From Actinocatenispora thailandica (GTDB lineage Bacteria > Actinomycetota > Actinomycetes > Mycobacteriales > Micromonosporaceae), in contig NZ_AP023355.1 of assembly GCF_016865425.1 (NCBI RefSeq), positions 372,001 through 436,000 on the forward strand: a DNA stretch of 64,000 bases. The letters are read 5' to 3'. Shown piece by piece: positions 5,361 through 63,511 of this stretch. The notes beneath the pieces were generated by a model. It had not been told where the DNA came from. It saw only the letters and a program-made list of their open reading frames with translations, and did not search any database. Each line of letters begins with the position of its first letter. Position 1 is the first letter of the stretch. The translations under genes and the position numbers were made by a program.

Positions 5361-5497
5361 CCCTTTGCTCTGCACACCCATACGAACCACTCGTGGTGCG
5401 GATAGGTGTGCAGAGCAGTGGTGCGCTCGGGTGCGCAGAGCAGGTGGTGCGCTCGGGTGCGCAGAGCAGTGGTGCGCTCAGGTGCGCAGAGCAAAGG
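5361..5497. repeat. Hairpin followed by four copies of an arm sequence
   Basis: CTCTGCACACC (5368-5378) pairs perfectly with GGTGTGCAGAG (5405-5415), with an inner ACCAC/GTGGT stem. The right arm then recurs as GGTGCGCAGAGCA at 5430, 5456 and 5481, with a period of about 25 bases. The last copy extends to GCAAAGG, matching the CCTTTGC before the left arm. One left arm could therefore pair with any of four right arms. It lies in the 366-base gap between the MFS gene and the next gene, which holds no other feature I can support. Confidence 0.75.
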
Positions 5498-7220: not shown

Positions 7221-7263
7221 TAGATGGCGCCGCTATCTAGATGGTCGTGCGACATGCTAGGTT
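7221..7263 (+). promoter_or_regulatory. PadR promoter with palindromic operator
   Basis: TAGATGGCG (7221-7229) and CGCTATCTA (7231-7239) form an inverted repeat with one mismatch. The hexamer TAGATGG recurs at 7238. A -10 box TAGGTT lies at 7258-7263, six bases before the PadR GTG, so the mRNA is predicted to be leaderless. The palindrome sits near the -35 position, as expected for autorepression. The 190 bases before it (7028-7220) hold no gene that I can support. Confidence 0.55.
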
Positions 7264-7269
7264 CGCGGG

Positions 7270-7608
7270 GTGGAACCGGACCGGCGGGCGCAGTGGTTGC
7301 GCGGTGTGCTGGACCTGTGCGTGCTCGGCACGCTCGCCCGCGGCGAGTCGTACGGCTACCAGCTCGCGCAGGCGCTCGATGCCGCCGGCCTCGGCCCGAT
7401 CCAGGGCGGCACGCTCTACCCGGTGCTGCTGCGGTTGCAGCGGGCCGGGCTGATCGCCGCCCGCTGGCGGGGCGGCGAGGCCGGCCCGGCCCGGAAGTAC
7501 TACCGGATCACCGGGTCCGGCGTGACCACGCTGCGGCAGGCGGCGACCGACTGGTCCGGCTTCGCCGACCGGGTGACCGCGATCCTTTCGACCGGAGGTG
7601 TCGGGTGA
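7270..7608 (+). CDS. PadR-family transcriptional regulator
   Basis: Winged-helix repressor of 112 residues. 'LCVLGTLARGESYGYQLAQAL' (about residues 11-31) and 'GGTLYPVLLRLQRAGLI' (about 44-60) are the diagnostic PadR helix-turn-helix, and 'PARKYYRITGSG' is the wing. It heads an operon with an ABC ATPase and a permease, which it very probably controls. GTG 7270 is the only sensible start. Its stop lies in the first copy of a triplicated 26-base junction. Confidence 0.92.
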   Translation: MEPDRRAQWLRGVLDLCVLGTLARGESYGYQLAQALDAAGLGPIQGGTLYPVLLRLQRAGLIAARWRGGEAGPARKYYRITGSGVTTLRQAATDWSGFADRVTAILSTGGVG

Positions 7609-7660
7609 GCACGGATGCCGGAGGTGTCGGGTGAGCACGGATGCCGGAGGTGTCGGGTGA
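7592..7660 (+). repeat. Triplicated 26-base stop/start junction
   Basis: The 26-base unit that begins CCGGAGGTGTCGGGTGA is present three times, starting at 7592, 7618 and 7644 (the last copy diverges after GTGAG). Each copy holds a Shine-Dalgarno-like GGAGGTG and a GTGA start/stop overlap. PadR stops in copy 1. Copy 1's GTG (7605) opens a nine-codon ORF ending at 7634, copy 2's GTG (7631) opens the same ORF ending at 7660, and copy 3's GTG (7657) starts the ABC ATPase. Because 26 is not a multiple of three, each added unit makes another mini-ORF instead of a fusion. Confidence 0.85.
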
Positions 7661-8481
7661 GGACGGACGGATGGTTGGCCGCGCTGGCCACCGAACTGCA
7701 CCGGCACGGGCTCGGTTCGGACCTGACCGGGCACGTGGTGGCCGAGGCGGCGGCGCACCTGCGTGACAGCGGGGAGGCACCGTTGACCGCGTTCGGCGCG
7801 CCGGAAGCGTACGCGGCGGCCGTCGCGGCGAGCGTCGGTGGCCCGGCGCCCGCCGCACCCGGCCGGGCCGTCGGACCGGTGCGGCTCGCGGCCCGCGGCA
7901 TCACCAAGCGGTACCGGCGGCGCACCGTGCTCGCCGACGTCGATCTGACCGTGCGGGCCGGTGAGGTCGCCGCGGTCATCGGCGCGAACGGCTGCGGCAA
8001 GAGCACCCTGCTGCGCATCTGCGCCGGGCTGGCCCGACCGGACCGGGGCACCGTACGGATCGACGGCCGGCTCGGGTTCTGCCCGCAGGACGGCGGGGTC
8101 AGCGAGTTCCTCACCGCCGACGAGCACTTCGCGCTGGTCGGCGCCGGCCGCGGCCTGGACCGGGCGTCGGCTCGGCGTGCCGGGCGCGCCGACGCCGCCC
8201 TGCTGGACTGGGCGCCGCAGCCGCGGGTGCTGGCGCGGCACCTGTCCGGCGGCACCCGGCAGAAGCTGAACCTGGCGCTGGCCCGGCTCGGCACCCCGGA
8301 CGTGCTGCTGCTCGACGAGCCGTACCAGGGCTTCGACCGCGGCTCCTACCTCGACTTCTGGCACCAGGTGTGGCGCTGGCGAGACGGCGGCACGGCGATC
8401 GTGGTGGTCACCCACCTGCTCAACCAACTGGACCGGGTCGACACCGTGCTGGACCTGACCCGGGCGGAGGTGGCGGCATGA
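7657..8481 (+). CDS. ABC transporter ATP-binding protein
   Basis: ATPase of 274 residues. The first 70 residues are an unusual extension ahead of the ATPase fold ('RLAARGITKRYRRRTVLADVDL'). Walker A is 'GANGCGKST' (109-117), the signature is 'LSGGTRQK' (from 196), Walker B is 'VLLLDEP' and the switch His is in 'VVVTHLL'. The GTG at 7657 overlaps the last mini-ORF of the triplicated junction. An in-frame ATG at 7615 is possible but lies in the repeat. The 4-base ATGA overlap with the permease shows they form one transporter, probably an exporter controlled by PadR. Confidence 0.9.
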   Translation: MRTDGWLAALATELHRHGLGSDLTGHVVAEAAAHLRDSGEAPLTAFGAPEAYAAAVAASVGGPAPAAPGRAVGPVRLAARGITKRYRRRTVLADVDLTVRAGEVAAVIGANGCGKSTLLRICAGLARPDRGTVRIDGRLGFCPQDGGVSEFLTADEHFALVGAGRGLDRASARRAGRADAALLDWAPQPRVLARHLSGGTRQKLNLALARLGTPDVLLLDEPYQGFDRGSYLDFWHQVWRWRDGGTAIVVVTHLLNQLDRVDTVLDLTRAEVAA

Positions 8482-9170
8482 CGAGGACCCTGGTGGTGGC
8501 CGAGATGGCGCTGCGCGAGATGGCGCGGCGCCGGGTCGTGTTGATCATCCTGCTGCTGTTGCCGCTGGCGTTCTACCTGAGCCGGCGCGGCGACCATCTC
8601 GGCCAGTCGATCCGGTTCGTGTGCCTCGGGTTGGGCTGGGCGCTGTCCACCGCGGCGCTGTTCGCCGGCAGCGCCGCGCGGACGATCGAACCGCGGCTGC
8701 GACTGTCCGGATACTGCGCCCGGCATCTGATCGTCGGCCGGCTCGCCGCCCTGTGGGCGGTCGGCGTGCTGCTGAGCGCACCGTACTTCCTGCTCGTCCG
8801 GCTGGATCAGCACGACGTGCGGTACGGGGCGATCGCCGCGATCATGGCGCTGACCGTGCTGGTGTCGGCGTCGTTCGGGCTGGCCCTGAGCGTGGTACTG
8901 CCGCGCGAACTGGAGGGCACCCTGGTGCTGCTCGCGGTGGTGGGGCTGCAGATGATGCTCGACCCGGGCGATGCCTCGGCGCGGGCGCTGCCGTTCTGGT
9001 TCAGCCGGGAACTCGCCACCTACGCGGTCGACCACACCGGCGACGGGTACCTCGACCGCGGGTTGCTGCACGGGGTGCTCGCGGCGGCGGTACTCACGGC
9101 GCTGGTCGCGGTCGCCTTCCGGGTCCGGCAGGGCAGGCGGCCGCACCTGCGCTTCGAACCGATCCGCTGA
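8478..9170 (+). CDS. ABC transporter permease
   Basis: Membrane protein of 230 residues with about six hydrophobic segments: 21-35, 45-65, 80-100, 112-135, 140-160 and 195-215. It has no similarity that I can name beyond ABC-2-type half permeases. The ATG at 8478 overlaps the ATPase stop by four bases (ATGA). Together with PadR and the ATPase it makes a compact regulator-exporter cassette. Substrate unknown. A perfect hairpin terminator follows 15 bases after its stop. Confidence 0.82.
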   Translation: MTRTLVVAEMALREMARRRVVLIILLLLPLAFYLSRRGDHLGQSIRFVCLGLGWALSTAALFAGSAARTIEPRLRLSGYCARHLIVGRLAALWAVGVLLSAPYFLLVRLDQHDVRYGAIAAIMALTVLVSASFGLALSVVLPRELEGTLVLLAVVGLQMMLDPGDASARALPFWFSRELATYAVDHTGDGYLDRGLLHGVLAAAVLTALVAVAFRVRQGRRPHLRFEPIR

Positions 9171-13738: not shown

Positions 13739-15042
13739 CCGGCACACCCGCCTCGGACACCGAACCGTCCGATACCGGTACCGCCGTGCGCCGCGGGCTG
13801 CTCGGCCGCGTCGCCGTGGACACCCGGCCGCTGCGCCACCCGGCGTACCGGCGGATGTGGATCGGCAACGGCGTCTCGTTCATCGGCTTCCAGGTCACCT
13901 CGGTGGCGGTACCGGTGCAGATGGATGCGATCACCCACCAGCCGGCGTGGAACGGCTACCTCGGCCTCGCCGGGCTGGTCCCGCTGGTGGTCTTCGCGAT
14001 CTGGGGTGGCGCCATCGCCGACGTACTGGACCGGCGCCGGCTCGTGCTGATCGGCTCGCTGTTCACCTGGGGGGTCACGCTCGCGCTGCTCGCGCAGGCG
14101 CTGATCGGGCTGCACAGCCCGGCGCTGCTGCTGGTACTGACCGCGTTGCAGGCGGTCGGCTTCGCGGTGGTGTCGCCGACCCGCGGCGCGATCGTGCCCC
14201 GGCTGGTACCGGCCGGATTGGTGCCGTCGGCGAACACGCTCAACTTCACGGTCTCCAGCGTGGCGACGGTGATCGGGCCGCTGTTCGCCGGCGCGGTGCT
14301 CGGCACCGGCCACTACGCCGCCGCGTACGGGGTGGATGCGGTGCTGTTCACCGTGTCGCTGTGGGCCAGCTTCCGGCTGCCGGCGATGCCACCGGTGGGC
14401 CGGCGGAACCGGCCCGACCTGCGGGCCGTGCTGTCCGGGCTGGCGTTCATCGCCGCCACCCCGCTGCTGTGGCTGTCGTTCGCCGCGGACCTGACCGCGA
14501 ACGTGCTGGCGATGCCGCGGGCGCTGTTCCCGGTGGTGGCCCGGACACAGTTCGGTGGCGAGGGCGCCGCCGGCTGGCTGTACTCGGCGATCGCCATCGG
14601 CGCGGTCGTCGGCGGGCTGTTCTCCGGCTGGATCGGGCGGATCCGCCGGCAGGGTCTCGCCCTGGTCGGCGCGGTCGCCTGCTGGGGGCTGGCGGTCGCC
14701 GCGGCCGGGCTGGCGCACTCGCTGCTGATCGCGGTGCTGTTCCTGGCCGCTGCCGGCTGCGCCGACCTGGTGAGCTCGGTGTACCGGCAGACGATCCTGC
14801 AACTGCACGCGCCGGACGAGCTGCGCGGCCGGTTGCAGGGCGTGTTCACCGCGGTGGTGGCCGGCGGGCCGCGGCTCGGCGACGTGCGCGCCGGCCTGAC
14901 CGCGCAGGCGTTCGGGCCGACCGCGGCATGGACAGTCGGCGGCCTCGCCGCGACCGCGGTGATCGTGCTGCTGGCGCTGGCGTTCCCGGCGCTGCGTCGC
15001 TACGACGGCCGGGCGCCGGCGCCGCGGGCCGGCGGCGACTGA
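13735..15042 (+). CDS. MFS transporter, MFS_3-like
   Basis: Exporter-type transporter of 435 residues with 11-12 predicted helices. 'LRHPAYRRMWIGNGVSFIGFQVTSVAVP' is the characteristic N-terminal entry, and 'GGAIADVLDRRRLVLIGSL' is the helix 2-3 signature. GTG 13735 overlaps the pdxH stop (GTGA). It is coupled to pdxH; transport of a vitamin B6-related compound would be a guess. It ends in a polar tail just before a degenerate GGGCCGGTGGTGG repeat. Confidence 0.87.
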   Translation: MTGTPASDTEPSDTGTAVRRGLLGRVAVDTRPLRHPAYRRMWIGNGVSFIGFQVTSVAVPVQMDAITHQPAWNGYLGLAGLVPLVVFAIWGGAIADVLDRRRLVLIGSLFTWGVTLALLAQALIGLHSPALLLVLTALQAVGFAVVSPTRGAIVPRLVPAGLVPSANTLNFTVSSVATVIGPLFAGAVLGTGHYAAAYGVDAVLFTVSLWASFRLPAMPPVGRRNRPDLRAVLSGLAFIAATPLLWLSFAADLTANVLAMPRALFPVVARTQFGGEGAAGWLYSAIAIGAVVGGLFSGWIGRIRRQGLALVGAVACWGLAVAAAGLAHSLLIAVLFLAAAGCADLVSSVYRQTILQLHAPDELRGRLQGVFTAVVAGGPRLGDVRAGLTAQAFGPTAAWTVGGLAATAVIVLLALAFPALRRYDGRAPAPRAGGD

Positions 15043-15418
15043 CGGGCCGGTGGTGGCTGACGGGCCGGTGGTGGACGGGCTGGTCGCGGCGGACGGGCTA
15101 AGGCGACTGACGGGCCGGTGGCGGCGGACGGGCCGGCGGCGACCGACGGCCGGGCGGTCTGGTTGGTGACGTCGTCGCGGCCAGACACCCCCGCCCACCC
15201 AGGGGGGCGCCCCGGCAACCACGCTACCGCCCGATCTTGCGTGTTGGCCGGCGCGACGGGCAAGCTGTGGACAACCGGCGCCCCTGTGGACAACGGCGAC
15301 CCGCCGGCCCGCCCAGCCAGGGCGTGCGGCCAGCCGAGGCGTGTGCCCGGCCGGGCGTGCGGCCACCCGGGCGTGTGACCGGCCAGGCCGGCGGGCCCGC
15401 GACCGACGGGAAGCCGCC
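15043..15418. other. Intergenic stretch with degenerate repeat and two DnaA-box-like 9-mers
   Basis: No gene is supported here. From 15043 to about 15140, 'GACGGGCCGGTGGTGG'-like words recur irregularly. TGTGGACAA, the reverse of the actinobacterial DnaA-box variant TTGTCCACA, occurs twice, at 15266-15274 and 15285-15293. An 86-codon open frame (15118-15378) has no recognisable protein features and is not called. Confidence 0.5.
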
Positions 15419-31594: not shown

Positions 31595-32187
31595 GTGCCC
31601 TCGGCTGCTTTCCCGGTCATGCGGTATTGCGAGGGCTACGAATCGGTCCGCGCCGGATCGTCCCGCTGCACCAGGCCGGTGGGAGACGCTGCGCAGCACG
31701 GCAGTCCTGCCGGCACGGCGATCCACCGGGGGACGGGTCCGCGGCCCGGCATCTCCCGACTCATCTCCGCTCCCGGATCGGGTGCGTCCGGCGACGTTCG
31801 CACCCTGGATCCGGGTGTCACTGAAACCTCAGCGGGCCCCGCTCCCGACCGTTCTTCGGATGCTCCGGATGTGTCGAGTTCCCTGGACCGGGCACGCGGG
31901 ACGCGGTACCGCGCGGGGCGTACTGCTTCCGGAGCGCGATGCTTCGGGAGCGACGGTGCCCTGGGAACCGGCGACGCTTCGTCAGGCGCGGCACGTCCGG
32001 AGCGCGATGCTCTGGGAACCGGCGACGCTTCGTCAGGCGCGGCACGTCCAGAACGCGATGCTTCGAGAACGAGGGTGCCCCGGGAACCGGCGACGATTCG
32101 GGAAGCGCGGCACGTCAGGGATCGACGATGCTCCGGCACCCGCCGCGGCCGGGAGGCCCGGCGCCGGGTGCTCGGATCGCGGACGCA
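31595..32187. other. Gene-free stretch containing a tandem repeat
   Basis: Several open frames exist on both strands, but none has recognisable features or a ribosome-binding site, and their low-complexity peptides come from the repeat array at 31931-32116. I call no gene between the rRNA terminator and the terminator of the chaplin gene. Confidence 0.6.
31931..32116. repeat. Tandem minisatellite, three copies of a 51-68 base unit
   Basis: Copy 1 spans 31931-31998 and begins GGAGCGCGATGCTTCGGGAG. Copy 2 (31999-32049) lacks 17 internal bases, and copy 3 (32050-32116) is full length but diverged. All share GGGAACCGGCGACG and GCGCGGCACGTC. A partial fourth copy follows to about 32135. Units are not inverted and there are no unique spacers, so this is not CRISPR. 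Confidence 0.8.
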
Positions 32188-43827: not shown

Positions 43828-44042
43828 GGTCCTCGAAGCCGGCTCGACCGGACTCCGGCTCGCGCGAGCGCAGCCTCGAGGCATCCTGGGCCAGCTCGCG
43901 CATCCGGCGGCCGGCCGCAGTCTCGGCCGGCACCGTCGGCTGTCGCCGCCGTCACGGGGGAACGGCGGTCGCCCCGGGCCCTTCTCGGAACGCGTCCCGC
44001 GATGGCGCGGCCCCCTCACTGCCGCCCCCGCCCGGAACGTCG

Positions 44043-44170
44043 GCGCCGGGAACGGCAGCGCCCGACCGGCAGTGCTGAACCGGCAGTGCTGATCGACAGC
44101 GCCGGGAACGGCAGCGCCCGACCGGCAGCGTCAGCCGGCAGTGCTGGAACCGCAGTGCTGGAACGGCAGT
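44043..44170. repeat. GC-rich minisatellite with CGGCAGTGCTG words
   Basis: GCGCCGGGAACGGCAGCGCC is repeated at 44043 and 44099-44100 (about 57 bases apart), and CGGCAGTGCTG or close variants recur about five times up to 44170. It occupies the gap after the small hypothetical gene, in front of the 3' end of the FHA gene. The rest of 43828-44224 holds no supported gene. Confidence 0.7.
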
Positions 44171-44224
44171 GCTGGACCGCGATGCCAGAACGACGGCGCC
44201 GAGCGGTGCTGCCGGAACGATCGG

Positions 44225-53618: not shown

Positions 53619-55826
53619 ATGACGGATCCTCGGCACCCCGGCTCGGTGATGGCGCGCGTGGGCCGGTTCTGCGCGCGGCATGGCTGGTGGGTCGCCGCCG
53701 CCTGGCTGGTGCTGCTGGTCGGTGCCACGGTCGGCAACCGGCTGGCCGGCGGCACGTACTCCGACGACTTCCAGATCCCGAACTCACCGGCCCAGCAGGG
53801 CGCGAACCTGCTCCAGGCGCACGACGCGGCGGCCGGCGGCCAGTCCGGCCAGCTGGTGTTCACCGTCGGGCACGGCACCGTCGCCGATCACCGGTCCCAG
53901 GTCGAGACCGCCACGCACGACGTCGGCGCGCTGTCCCACGTGCTGTCCGCGAGCGATCCGCTCTCGTCCGGCACGACGTCGAAGGACGGCCGGACCGCCT
54001 ACTCCACGGTCCATTTCGACGTGAACCCGTCGACGCTCGGCAGCTCGTACGTCGACTCGGTCGACCGGGCGGTGTCGGGTGCCCGCGCCGCCGGGGTGCA
54101 CGTCGACTACGGCGGGGTGCTCGGCCAGGCCGCCCGGCCCAAGGCGAACGATGCGCTCTCCGAAGCCATCGGCATGGGCGTGGCGGTGGTCGTGCTGCTG
54201 CTCGGCTTCGGCAGCGTCTACGCGGCGGGGCTGCCCATCCTGTCCGCGCTGGCCGGCGTCGGTACCGGGATCGGGGTGCTGGGGCTGGTCGCCGCCACGA
54301 CCACCTTCGCGTCGGTGTCGCCGACGCTCGCCGTGATGATCGGGTTGGGTGTCGGCATCGACTACGCGCTGTTCCTGACCACCCGTTACCGGCAGTACGT
54401 GATGGACGGGATGGATCCGGTCGAGGCCGTCGGCCGGACCTCGGCGCACAGCGGACGTTCGGTGCTGGTCGCGGCGGTGACCGTGATCATCGCGATGATC
54501 GGGCTGTACGCCTCCGGCATCGGCTTCATCGGCAAGCTCGGGTTGGCCGCCGCGATCGCCGTCGCGGTCGCCGCGCTGGCCGCCATCACGCTGGTACCGG
54601 CCCTGCTCGGGCTGGCCGGCCGGCGCATCGACCGGCTGTGGGTGCGCCGGCCGGTCGCCGAGTCCGGGGCGGGCGGCGCGGCGACCGGCTGGCACCGCTA
54701 CGCCCGGCGGGTCAGCCGGCACCCGTGGCGCTTCCTGGGCGCCGGGCTGGCCGTCCTCGTCGTCCTCGCCATCCCGATGTTCTCGATGACCCTCGGCCAC
54801 GTCGACGCCGGCGCCGACCCGACCTCCTACACCGACCGGCGGGCGTACGACGCGATCAGCGACGCCTTCGGCCCCGGCGCCAACGGCCCGCTGACCGTCG
54901 TCGTGCAGCCGGCGGCCGGGAAGTCCGCCTCCTCGCTCGCCACCCCGGTCGGCGACGCGTTGCACAAGACCGCCGGTGTGGCGTCGGTGTCGTCGCCGAC
55001 GACCACCCCGGACGGGGCCCTGCTGGTGACCACCGTGGTACCGACCACCGGGCCGCAGGACGCTGCCACCGACCAGCTGTTGCACCATCTCACCGACGAC
55101 GTCCTGCCGTCCGCGCTGCAGGGCACCGGCGCGCAGTCCTCCATCACCGGCACGCTGCCGGCCAACCTGGACTTCCGCGACCAGGTGTCCGCCCAGCTAC
55201 CGGTGATCATCGGGGTGGTGATCGGCGCCGCCTTCCTGCTGCTGACGAGCAGCTTCCGCAGCCCCGTCCTGGCGCTCAAGGCGGCCGTGCTGAACCTGTT
55301 CTCGATCGGCGCCGCGTACGGCGTGATCGTGGCCGTGTTCCAGTGGGGCTGGGGCGGAGCGCTGCTGGGCGTGGCGGAGAAGGTGCCGATCGAGTCGTAC
55401 GTACCGATGATGATGTTCGCCATCGTGTTCGGCCTGTCGATGGACTACGAGGTGTTCCTGCTCTCGCACATCCGGGAACGCTGGCTGGCGACCGGCGACA
55501 ACCGCCGCAGCGTCGCCGAGGGGCTCGCCGCGACCGCCCGGGTGATCAGCTGCGCCGCGCTGATCATGACCAGCGTGTTCCTGGCGTTCCTGCTCTCCAG
55601 CAACGTGGTGGTCAAGATGCTGGCGCTGGGCCTCGGCGTCAGCGTGCTCATCGACGCGACCCTGATCCGCCTGGTCGTGGTACCGGCCACGATGTTCCTG
55701 TTCGGTCCGGCCAACTGGTGGCTGCCCCGCTGGCTCGACCGGCTGCTGCCGAACATCGAGGCGGAGCCGGCGCCGGAACCGCCGGAGGCCCTGCCCGGTG
55801 GCGAGCCGGCGCCGGAGTCCGCGTGA
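53619..55826 (+). CDS. MMPL-family (RND) lipid/drug exporter
   Basis: Exporter of 735 residues with two halves of one plus five helices and two large extracytoplasmic loops (about 40-180 and 410-530). 'GLGVGIDYALFLTTRYR' and its second-half counterpart 'GLSMDYEVFLLSHIRE' carry the paired Asp-Tyr proton relay of MMPL proteins. ATG 53619 is chosen; ATG 53649 is also plausible. Relatives export lipids or glycolipids of the envelope. The last codons lie inside a 41-base tandem repeat, so the C-terminal 'PGGEPAPESA' is repeat-encoded. Confidence 0.93.
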   Translation: MTDPRHPGSVMARVGRFCARHGWWVAAAWLVLLVGATVGNRLAGGTYSDDFQIPNSPAQQGANLLQAHDAAAGGQSGQLVFTVGHGTVADHRSQVETATHDVGALSHVLSASDPLSSGTTSKDGRTAYSTVHFDVNPSTLGSSYVDSVDRAVSGARAAGVHVDYGGVLGQAARPKANDALSEAIGMGVAVVVLLLGFGSVYAAGLPILSALAGVGTGIGVLGLVAATTTFASVSPTLAVMIGLGVGIDYALFLTTRYRQYVMDGMDPVEAVGRTSAHSGRSVLVAAVTVIIAMIGLYASGIGFIGKLGLAAAIAVAVAALAAITLVPALLGLAGRRIDRLWVRRPVAESGAGGAATGWHRYARRVSRHPWRFLGAGLAVLVVLAIPMFSMTLGHVDAGADPTSYTDRRAYDAISDAFGPGANGPLTVVVQPAAGKSASSLATPVGDALHKTAGVASVSSPTTTPDGALLVTTVVPTTGPQDAATDQLLHHLTDDVLPSALQGTGAQSSITGTLPANLDFRDQVSAQLPVIIGVVIGAAFLLLTSSFRSPVLALKAAVLNLFSIGAAYGVIVAVFQWGWGGALLGVAEKVPIESYVPMMMFAIVFGLSMDYEVFLLSHIRERWLATGDNRRSVAEGLAATARVISCAALIMTSVFLAFLLSSNVVVKMLALGLGVSVLIDATLIRLVVVPATMFLFGPANWWLPRWLDRLLPNIEAEPAPEPPEALPGGEPAPESA

Positions 55827-55956
55827 GGGCCCGGCCCGGTGGCGAGCCGGCGCCGGAGTCCGCGTGAGGGCCCGGCCCGGTGGCGAGCCGGCGCCGGAGT
55901 CCGCGTGAGGGCCCGGCCCGGTGGCGAGCCGGCGCCGGAGTCCCCTGAGGGCCCGA
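55793..55956. repeat. 41-base tandem repeat spanning the MMPL stop codon
   Basis: Four copies start at 55793, 55834, 55875 and 55916, each with GCCCGGTGGCGAGCCGGCGCC and GGAGTCCGCGTGAGG. Copy 1 encodes the MMPL C-terminus and stop. Copies 1-3 are nearly identical, so expansion is recent. It fills the convergent gap up to the phosphatase gene and its self-complementary parts may help termination. Confidence 0.9.
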
Positions 55957-55978
55957 CCCGGCCACCGTGCCGGTGCGG

Positions 55979-56800: not shown

Positions 56801-56840
56801 GCGGCGGGTTCCTCACAGGGTGTGTCGGGGGCCGCCGGGG

Positions 56841-56950
56841 CCCGGCGGTCGGGCGGCGGTGCCCGGTGACGCCGAACGGTGCTGCCCGGCGGTCGGTCGG
56901 CGGTGCCCGGTGGCGCCGAACGGTGCTGCCCGGCGGTCGGTCGGCGGAGC
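56841..56950. repeat. 44-base tandem repeat, two and a half copies
   Basis: CCCGGCGGTCGGTCGGCGGT begins at 56841 (one variant base), 56885 and 56929, with GCCGAACGGTGCTG between copies. It lies in the gap between the phosphodiesterase stop and the phosphatase start. Confidence 0.85.
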
Positions 56951-56970
56951 CGGGTGGGTGCCGGCCAGTG

Positions 56971-63216: not shown

Positions 63217-63340
63217 CCGGACCTCCGTTTCGTCTCGGGACGGTGCACGCCGCGCGGGCACCGAGCATCGCCGGTACAGACGGCGCTCGCGCACCGGAAT
63301 CATCGCTCCGGGACACGGGAAACCCTGGTGCCGGTCGCCG

Positions 63341-63511
63341 GTGGCGCGGCACCCGGCGGTGTCCCCGGCGGCACGGCACCCGGCGGTGTCGCCGGCGGCA
63401 CGGCACCCGGCGGTGTCGCCGGCGGCACGGCACCCGGCGGTGTCGCCGGCGGCACGGCACCCGGCGGTGTCGCCGGCGGCGTGTCACCCGGCGGTGTCGC
63501 TGGCGGGCGGC
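63341..63511. repeat. 27-base tandem repeat, six copies
   Basis: CACCCGGCGGTGTC recurs at 63350, 63377, 63404, 63431, 63458 and 63485, an exact 27-base period (GGCGGCACGGCACCCGGCGG core). Since 27 is a multiple of three, both strands stay open: Gly-Gly-Thr-Ala-Pro-type on the forward and Pro-Pro-Gly-Ala-Val-type on the reverse. It lies between the divergent DinB and hydrolase genes; no gene is called on it. Confidence 0.92.

Follow-up and report, generated by a model that had tools for sequence, protein, structure and literature searches.

A tandem repeat at the PadR/ABC transporter ATPase junction of Actinocatenispora thailandica that probably leaves translational coupling intact

What becomes of a tightly coupled operon junction when a short repeat multiplies inside it, and does the number of repeat units matter for the downstream gene? 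The question is raised by a locus of Actinocatenispora thailandica (G000), whose genome is a single contig of 7,426,695 bases, and was addressed starting from a window comprising the whole analysed stretch of 64,000 nucleotides (GC content 72.5%). In the window, a PadR-family regulator of 112 amino acids (7270–7608, forward strand; PF03551, E=8.4e-19) is followed on the same strand by an ABC transporter ATPase of 274 amino acids (7657–8481; PF00005, E=9.3e-23), whose HAAS-like N-terminus matches PF22564 weakly and below the cut-off of that family (E=6.6e-4). The next gene (8478–9170, forward strand) encodes a membrane protein with a weak ABC-2 permease match, also below its cut-off (PF01061, E=4.3e-4), and overlaps the ATPase gene by ATGA at 8478–8481. 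Upstream of the operon, TAGGTT, a hexamer resembling the -10 element, lies at 7258–7263 on the forward strand, 6 nt before the PadR GTG and at equal spacing in two other species of the genus (G001 and G003). Farther upstream, within 7230–7270, is a TATCTAG motif that is likewise kept in both species, and the two motifs may represent a leaderless promoter and an operator.

The repeat at the PadR/ATPase junction spans 7592–7667 with a period of 26, 2.9 copies and 98% matches according to TRF. Its self-match at offset 26 continues unbroken over 44 positions, for which the chance expectation is about 8e-17 in 7.43 Mb of random sequence of the same composition. Both TRF and reading of the bases confirmed the original prediction that a 26-base unit with a Shine–Dalgarno (SD) sequence GGAGGTG and a GTGA stop/start occurs three times between PadR and the ATPase, with the qualification that copy 3 is partial and departs from the unit after 7661. 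Copy 1 (7592–7617, forward strand) has its SD at 7594–7600 and its GTGA at 7605–7608; the C-terminus of PadR (STGGVG*) lies within it, and the PadR stop codon TGA at 7606–7608 is overlapped by the GTG at 7605. The corresponding elements are found at 7620–7626 and 7631–7634 in copy 2 (7618–7643, forward strand) and at 7646–7652 and 7657–7660 in copy 3 (7644–7667, forward strand). Each copy had been said to start a nine-codon ORF, which is correct for copies 1 and 2, while copy 3 provides the ATPase start. Mini-ORF 1 (7605–7634, forward strand) overlaps with its stop the start of mini-ORF 2 (7631–7660, forward strand), whose own stop overlaps the ATPase GTG at 7657; both translate identically as VSTDAGGVG*. 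PadR, the two mini-ORFs and the ATPase thus constitute a chain joined by 4-nt stop/start overlaps. A route skipping the mini-ORFs also exists in G000, because the ATPase frame is open from just past the PadR stop and includes an ATG at 7615–7617 (forward strand; 6 nt past that stop; -9.4 kcal/mol), from which the protein would be 14 residues longer and the mini-ORFs would be bypassed.

A survey of the family revealed 130 ATPase matches in 129 of 354 genomes, all of which were used. A PadR motif was present upstream of the ATPase in 123 of them; the remaining seven include two pieces that end at contig ends. Automatic tracing placed NTGA at the PadR stop in 122 of the 123 cases, the exception (L139) being a junction that was traced as open although a GTGA is readable there. 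The start lies in the ATPase frame in 116 of these 122 NTGA junctions and in another frame in six (G000, G003, L132, L199, L288 and L289). As shown by this comparison of genome sequences, the 4-nt PadR/ATPase overlap is the norm in the family. Direct-repeat runs of at least 14 bases at the junction occur only in the three array-bearing genomes of the genus, and three loci outside it (L202, L229 and L259) have direct matches of 11–12 bases. In two genomes of genus g25 (L141 and L144), the same junction, just upstream of index 1500, looks by eye as if 18 nt with the ATPase start had been duplicated in frame, and the second ATPase start appears to be lost in one of the two. Amycolatopsis oliviviridis was the only close named relative (68%) among the matches listed in the genome search. 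Among 301 plasmid records, none reached 80% coverage of the PadR–ATPase pair, the best being an Embleya record covered to 77% at 74%.

Four genomes, one per species, were available for comparison within the genus. G001 and G003 form the nearest pair (DNA identity 0.94–0.95), followed by G000 (0.90–0.91), with G002 as the outermost species (0.79–0.82). The PadR and ATPase orthologues show 90–91% identity in G001 and G003, and 69% (PadR) and 78% (ATPase) in G002. The comparison among relatives that had been suggested with the original prediction revealed that unit copy number does vary at the orthologous junction, with a single copy (one GTGA) in G002, 3 in G000, 10 in G003 and 11 in G001. These counts include the terminal unit that starts the ATPase, and the division into units rebuilds the sequence exactly; terminal copies were left out of the unit column counts. 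Non-terminal units in G001 and G003 are 21–28 nt long and diverged, with 36 changes in 255 nt plus 8 indels in the former and 44 changes in 236 nt plus 5 indels in the latter. The comparison shows tandem duplication of a single overlap, as read from the assemblies, in the lineage of the three genus members, and from the single-copy relatives we infer the direction from a single copy to an array. The first unit of G003 equals that of G000 except for one extra G, so a contraction in G000 from a longer array followed by re-expansion is possible. A dispersed origin of the 26-bp unit was rejected, as the unit is confined to this locus in the four genomes: a pattern search allowing up to three mismatches found it nowhere else, and the best matches listed by a similarity search beyond the orthologous site were short, with E values of at least 4.8e-4.

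In all three species with an array, a path from each stop to an overlapping start leads from PadR into the ATPase frame. It passes through two intermediate ORFs in G000 (9 and 9 codons), three in G001 (41, 9 and 9 codons) and one in G003 (17 codons), so that 3, 11 and 10 copies correspond to 2, 3 and 1 intermediates, respectively, and steps do not track copies. The PadR C-terminus is longer in G001 and G003 than in G000, and the ATPase frame is entered 18 (G001) and 44 (G003) codons before the aligned start, giving 292 and 318 codons versus 274. These observations limit two further claims, namely that copy-number change adds or removes relay steps and that it alters neither protein. For exact units both claims hold: 26 nt is 2 mod 3, hence each exact copy adds one mini-ORF while both proteins remain unchanged, and the chain was kept with any number of consensus units from 0 to 11. 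In the relatives, by contrast, the steps do not follow the copies, 27-nt units extend the PadR C-terminus and the entry into the ATPase frame is shifted upstream. When pairs of units of 23–29 nt were placed between the G000 flanks, all were still coupled to the ATPase at the end, which rejects a strict length rule for coupling; unit lengths of 2 mod 3 yielded one mini-ORF per copy and other lengths fewer steps. A unit length of 2 mod 3, such as 26, therefore matters for unchanged proteins and for one mini-ORF per copy, and coupling itself is independent of it.

Selection on relay integrity was considered and rejected, since intact chains are weak evidence for it when about 28% survive random damage. 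With damage applied at the observed rate, the chain survived in a fraction of 0.279 (G001) and 0.284 (G003) of 20,000 simulations each, and with substitutions only in 0.229 and 0.269. Permutation of the unit order gave 0.762 (G001) and 0.790 (G003) and shuffling of the array bases 0.433 and 0.114, survival here being due in part to the terminal copy, which always offers a catch. Both arrays would be intact by chance in about 8% of cases even if they were independent, and G001 and G003 are sisters; their intact chains thus hint only weakly at selection. Nor does a mini-ORF count as evidence by itself, because chance relays, in which one to three mini-ORFs connect long open frames, are common: a sample of 800 kb contains 39 and the window four, two of these four being arrays. 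Repeats were absent from the 13 short chance relays of the sample that were checked (best identity 0.65).

The initiation signals were compared by pairing energies with the anti-SD tail and were listed up to a limit of -5.5 kcal/mol. The relay starts of G000 reach -13.8, -13.3 and -13.3 kcal/mol in copies 1, 2 and 3, the third of which starts the ATPase. In G001 the second, third and fourth of four relay starts have -10.1, -10.1 and -10.0 kcal/mol, and in G003 the second of two has -8.4 kcal/mol, while the first relay start in each of these two species is weaker than -5.5 kcal/mol. For the aligned ATPase start, the values are -13.3 (G000), -11.2 (G001), -10.0 (G003) and -12.1 kcal/mol (G002). 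The last copy thus has a strong SD of its own in each of the three species with an array (-10.0 to -13.3 kcal/mol), and direct ATPase starts could make copy number irrelevant. The distance from the PadR stop to the aligned ATPase start is 51 nt in G000, 227 nt in G001 and 181 nt in G003; over 51–227 nt direct reinitiation would be poor, so that either the relay or the SD of the last copy would be needed. In one study, a stop–start spacing of about 20 nt nearly abolished coupling in gene pairs of Haloferax and E. coli (PMC10666635). In another, removal of the SD cut reinitiation by 60–90% in three gene pairs of E. coli, proved fatal in another pair and left an uncoupled one unaffected (PMC6728339). 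A contrary result is quoted in a review, where spacing from -4 to +25 nt was without effect in one study, yet efficiency was much higher at -4 (PMC12548453). No special RNA structure was found over 7560–7720, which folds no better than shuffled sequences (z = +1.03).

The genomic background of the array was assessed with TRF in 80 stretches (1.6 Mb) and the window, using arrays of at least 2.3 copies and a score of at least 100. By a crude classification, the 128 arrays comprise 35 within open frames, 26 at the 3' ends of genes, four at co-directional junctions and 63 elsewhere. The junction arrays are the 26-bp array and three from the sample (L309, L325 and L302). L309 consists of 77-bp units that form a complete relay from a 1421-codon to a 443-codon open frame, and L302 has no complete relay. 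L325 (14623–14842) is a degenerate 82-bp array with a complete relay (28 and 56 codons) from an 844-codon to a 600-codon frame. A looser threshold placed seven of 357 arrays at co-directional junctions, adding L183 and L184, which have no relay, and L332, an 80-bp repeat of two copies that relays from its first ATGA, one base past the upstream stop, to a 101-codon frame. A 41-bp array of 4.9 copies is located in the window at 55764–55961, at the 3' end of a 769-codon frame; its unit length is also 2 mod 3, most units contain GTGA and its mini-ORF chain ends in a 96-codon frame. As an opposing 277-codon frame also ends there, coupling may not matter at that array. At L173 (10346–10486), a 25-bp array of 5.6 copies and 99% matches lies at a gene 3' end and its relay steps are 50 bp. 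Other minisatellites of the window lie at 5393–5493, 15025–15153, 31947–32062, 44029–44192, 56840–56957 and 63334–63506.

Taken together, we regard the array, with a probability of roughly two in three, as a minisatellite specific to this locus that does not disrupt translational coupling, a reading in line with the richness of the genome in minisatellites (119 arrays in the 1.6-Mb sample). The start state would have been the single 4-nt overlap standard in the family, followed by tandem copying in which each exact unit supplies an SD and a GTGA; the frame logic of this step is observed. Judging from work on termination–reinitiation, a ribosome ending PadR would meet a start at once and the mini-ORFs would pass it along to the ATPase. 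Growth and shrinkage of the array probably proceed by slippage or unequal crossing-over. The array would be mostly tolerated rather than serve as a device, with the relay holding coupling over the whole distance and the last copy, through its strong SD, permitting direct initiation as well. It is possible that copy number modestly affects ATPase output. Against this minisatellite reading stand the ATG at 7615, through which the mini-ORFs could go unused in G000, the weak first relay starts of G001 and G003, the frequent survival of randomly damaged chains and the contrary result on spacing.

The original prediction went further and proposed that the repeat tunes the operon: copy number would be selected, reinitiation steps would lose or gain ribosomes, and slippage would set the ratio of ATPase to PadR. 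Variation from 1 to 3, 10 and 11 copies between species and the intact chain in all three arrays agree with such a role, and a precedent exists in M. tuberculosis, where the length of a tandem repeat correlates with the mRNA level of the downstream gene (PMC2734929). We consider it rather unlikely, however, since the number of steps does not track the number of copies, the last copy has its strong SD, chains survive under the null in 28% of runs and the copy numbers compared come from one genome per species. The opposite extreme, in which an ordinary minisatellite is a pure passenger, the ATPase starts from its own SD or from ATG 7615 and translation of the mini-ORFs has no effect, likewise appears improbable. 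Arrays at the 3' ends of genes are frequent in this genome (26 of 128), the RNA over the junction is unremarkable, the last copy has a strong SD and synonymous changes are not in excess in the mini-ORFs if each distinct change is counted a single time; yet the family-wide conservation of the 4-nt overlap argues that coupling matters, and the chain is intact in three of three arrays.

A function for the repeated peptide that the mini-ORFs would encode (consensus xSTDAGGxx) is very improbable. Third codon positions account for 38 of the 90 unit changes, and 36 of 90 changes are synonymous versus 28.9 expected (P 0.07) when all are counted, but the 32 distinct changes counted once include 10 synonymous ones against 10.4 under the null, which leaves coding constraint on the mini-peptide unsupported, and several copies in the relatives are read through or shifted. 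An assembly artefact is barely credible, for although assemblies can miscount repeats, arrays occupy the same site in three separate genomes, two of them with diverged copies, and an array of 76 bp is spanned by ordinary reads.

Several known systems resemble the junction. In mycobacterial interspersed repetitive units (MIRUs), which appear mobile, an ORF of the unit connects with the gene at the insertion site through a spacing of -4 nt, according to the review cited above (PMC12548453). The 26-bp array, too, lies between neighbouring operon genes and leads from an internal ORF to the next gene by a -4 overlap. The spacer of senX3-regX3 is the locus ETR-D/MIRU04. Two sources describe 77- and 53-bp MIRU units in varying arrangement at senX3-regX3 (PMC4213456) and a 77-bp unit present one to seven times at ETR-D/MIRU04 (PMC2453075); 77, 53 and 26 are all 2 mod 3. 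However, MIRUs are scattered and measure 40–100 bp, with 41 places in H37Rv (PMC2734929), whereas the 26-bp unit lies outside this size range, occupies one place and seems to be derived from the junction itself. Lacking both dispersal and length, the array was not classified as a MIRU. Termination–reinitiation at 4-nt overlaps (ATGA coupling) matches the PadR/ATPase and ATPase/permease junctions in internal SD and conservation in the family, but normally involves one overlap, not three in a chain. Short ORFs by which a ribosome is handed to the following gene, as outlined in the review (PMC12548453), share the stop that overlaps the next start; here they stand in tandem and their number varies between species. 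Finally, the rnc/fpg1 repeat of M. tuberculosis is also an intergenic tandem repeat whose length variation correlates with expression, but the effect there is on mRNA level, and the passages on it describe no relay (PMC2734929).

A second kind of repeat with relay properties is dispersed in the genus. Matches to this 77/80-bp family at E≤1e-6, with no more than 40 candidates per genome scored, number 25 in G000, 38 in G001, 10 in G002 and 22 in G003. Thirty of the 95 were read (L333–L362, the L358 piece being incomplete), and 23 of the 30 form relays in which mini-ORFs, one or several, link an open frame of 80 or more codons to a following one of 70 or more, compared with five of 30 on the reverse strand and none and three of 30 after 700-base shifts. 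L334, L337 and L341 belong to one array, and none of them was counted among the relays. The units carry GGAGGAA and ATGA, and their mini-ORFs have 26–27 codons, mostly of the type MSERxRAN...CLxGVPTKEERx. Examples of these genome repeats are L309 (9323–9558), L332 (17602–17768) and, on the minus strand, L328 (index 16782). With one unit per locus (22 of 36 units), the mini-ORF frame has pN/pS values of 0.69 and 0.77, which do not fall clearly below those of other frames (0.64–1.00). In the fold of one unit, part of the SD is paired (z -2.16). Weaker relatives occur in at least 17 of 350 other genomes of the family, two candidates per genome having been scored, and several are in tandem with the start ATGAGYGAGCG in common. 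They include L373–L376 and L378–L381 of genus g23, another genus of the family; a further weaker relative, L377, comes from one genome of another family (f2). A search of 397 genomes of the order gave at least one match outside the family, plasmid and phage collections gave no match, and three stretches of the 77/80-bp family had no match in Rfam. As far as its sequences tell, the 77/80-bp family has MIRU-like features, being dispersed, 40–100 bp long and present in tandem copies, with an internal ORF and -4 overlaps at gene junctions. A literature search found no report of such a MIRU-like family in this genus, which is no proof of absence. The family would represent MIRU-like elements in a non-mycobacterial genus and deserves its own study.

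More broadly, the genus may use self-coupling repeats (the 26-bp array and perhaps the 82-bp array of L325, both of local origin, and the dispersed 77/80-bp family) as adjustable relays, in which copy number would set the number of reinitiation steps and give heritable, reversible protein ratios without breaking the operon. We regard this idea as doubtful; the unit lengths 26, 77 and 80 are 2 mod 3 and 82 is not. At the PadR/ATPase junction, the array exemplifies repeat growth inside a tightly coupled operon without breakage of the chain. The series of 1, 3, 10 and 11 copies at one conserved junction would offer a natural system for estimating the loss per termination–reinitiation step, and would allow one to ask whether ribosomes that have terminated depend on an overlap at each step.
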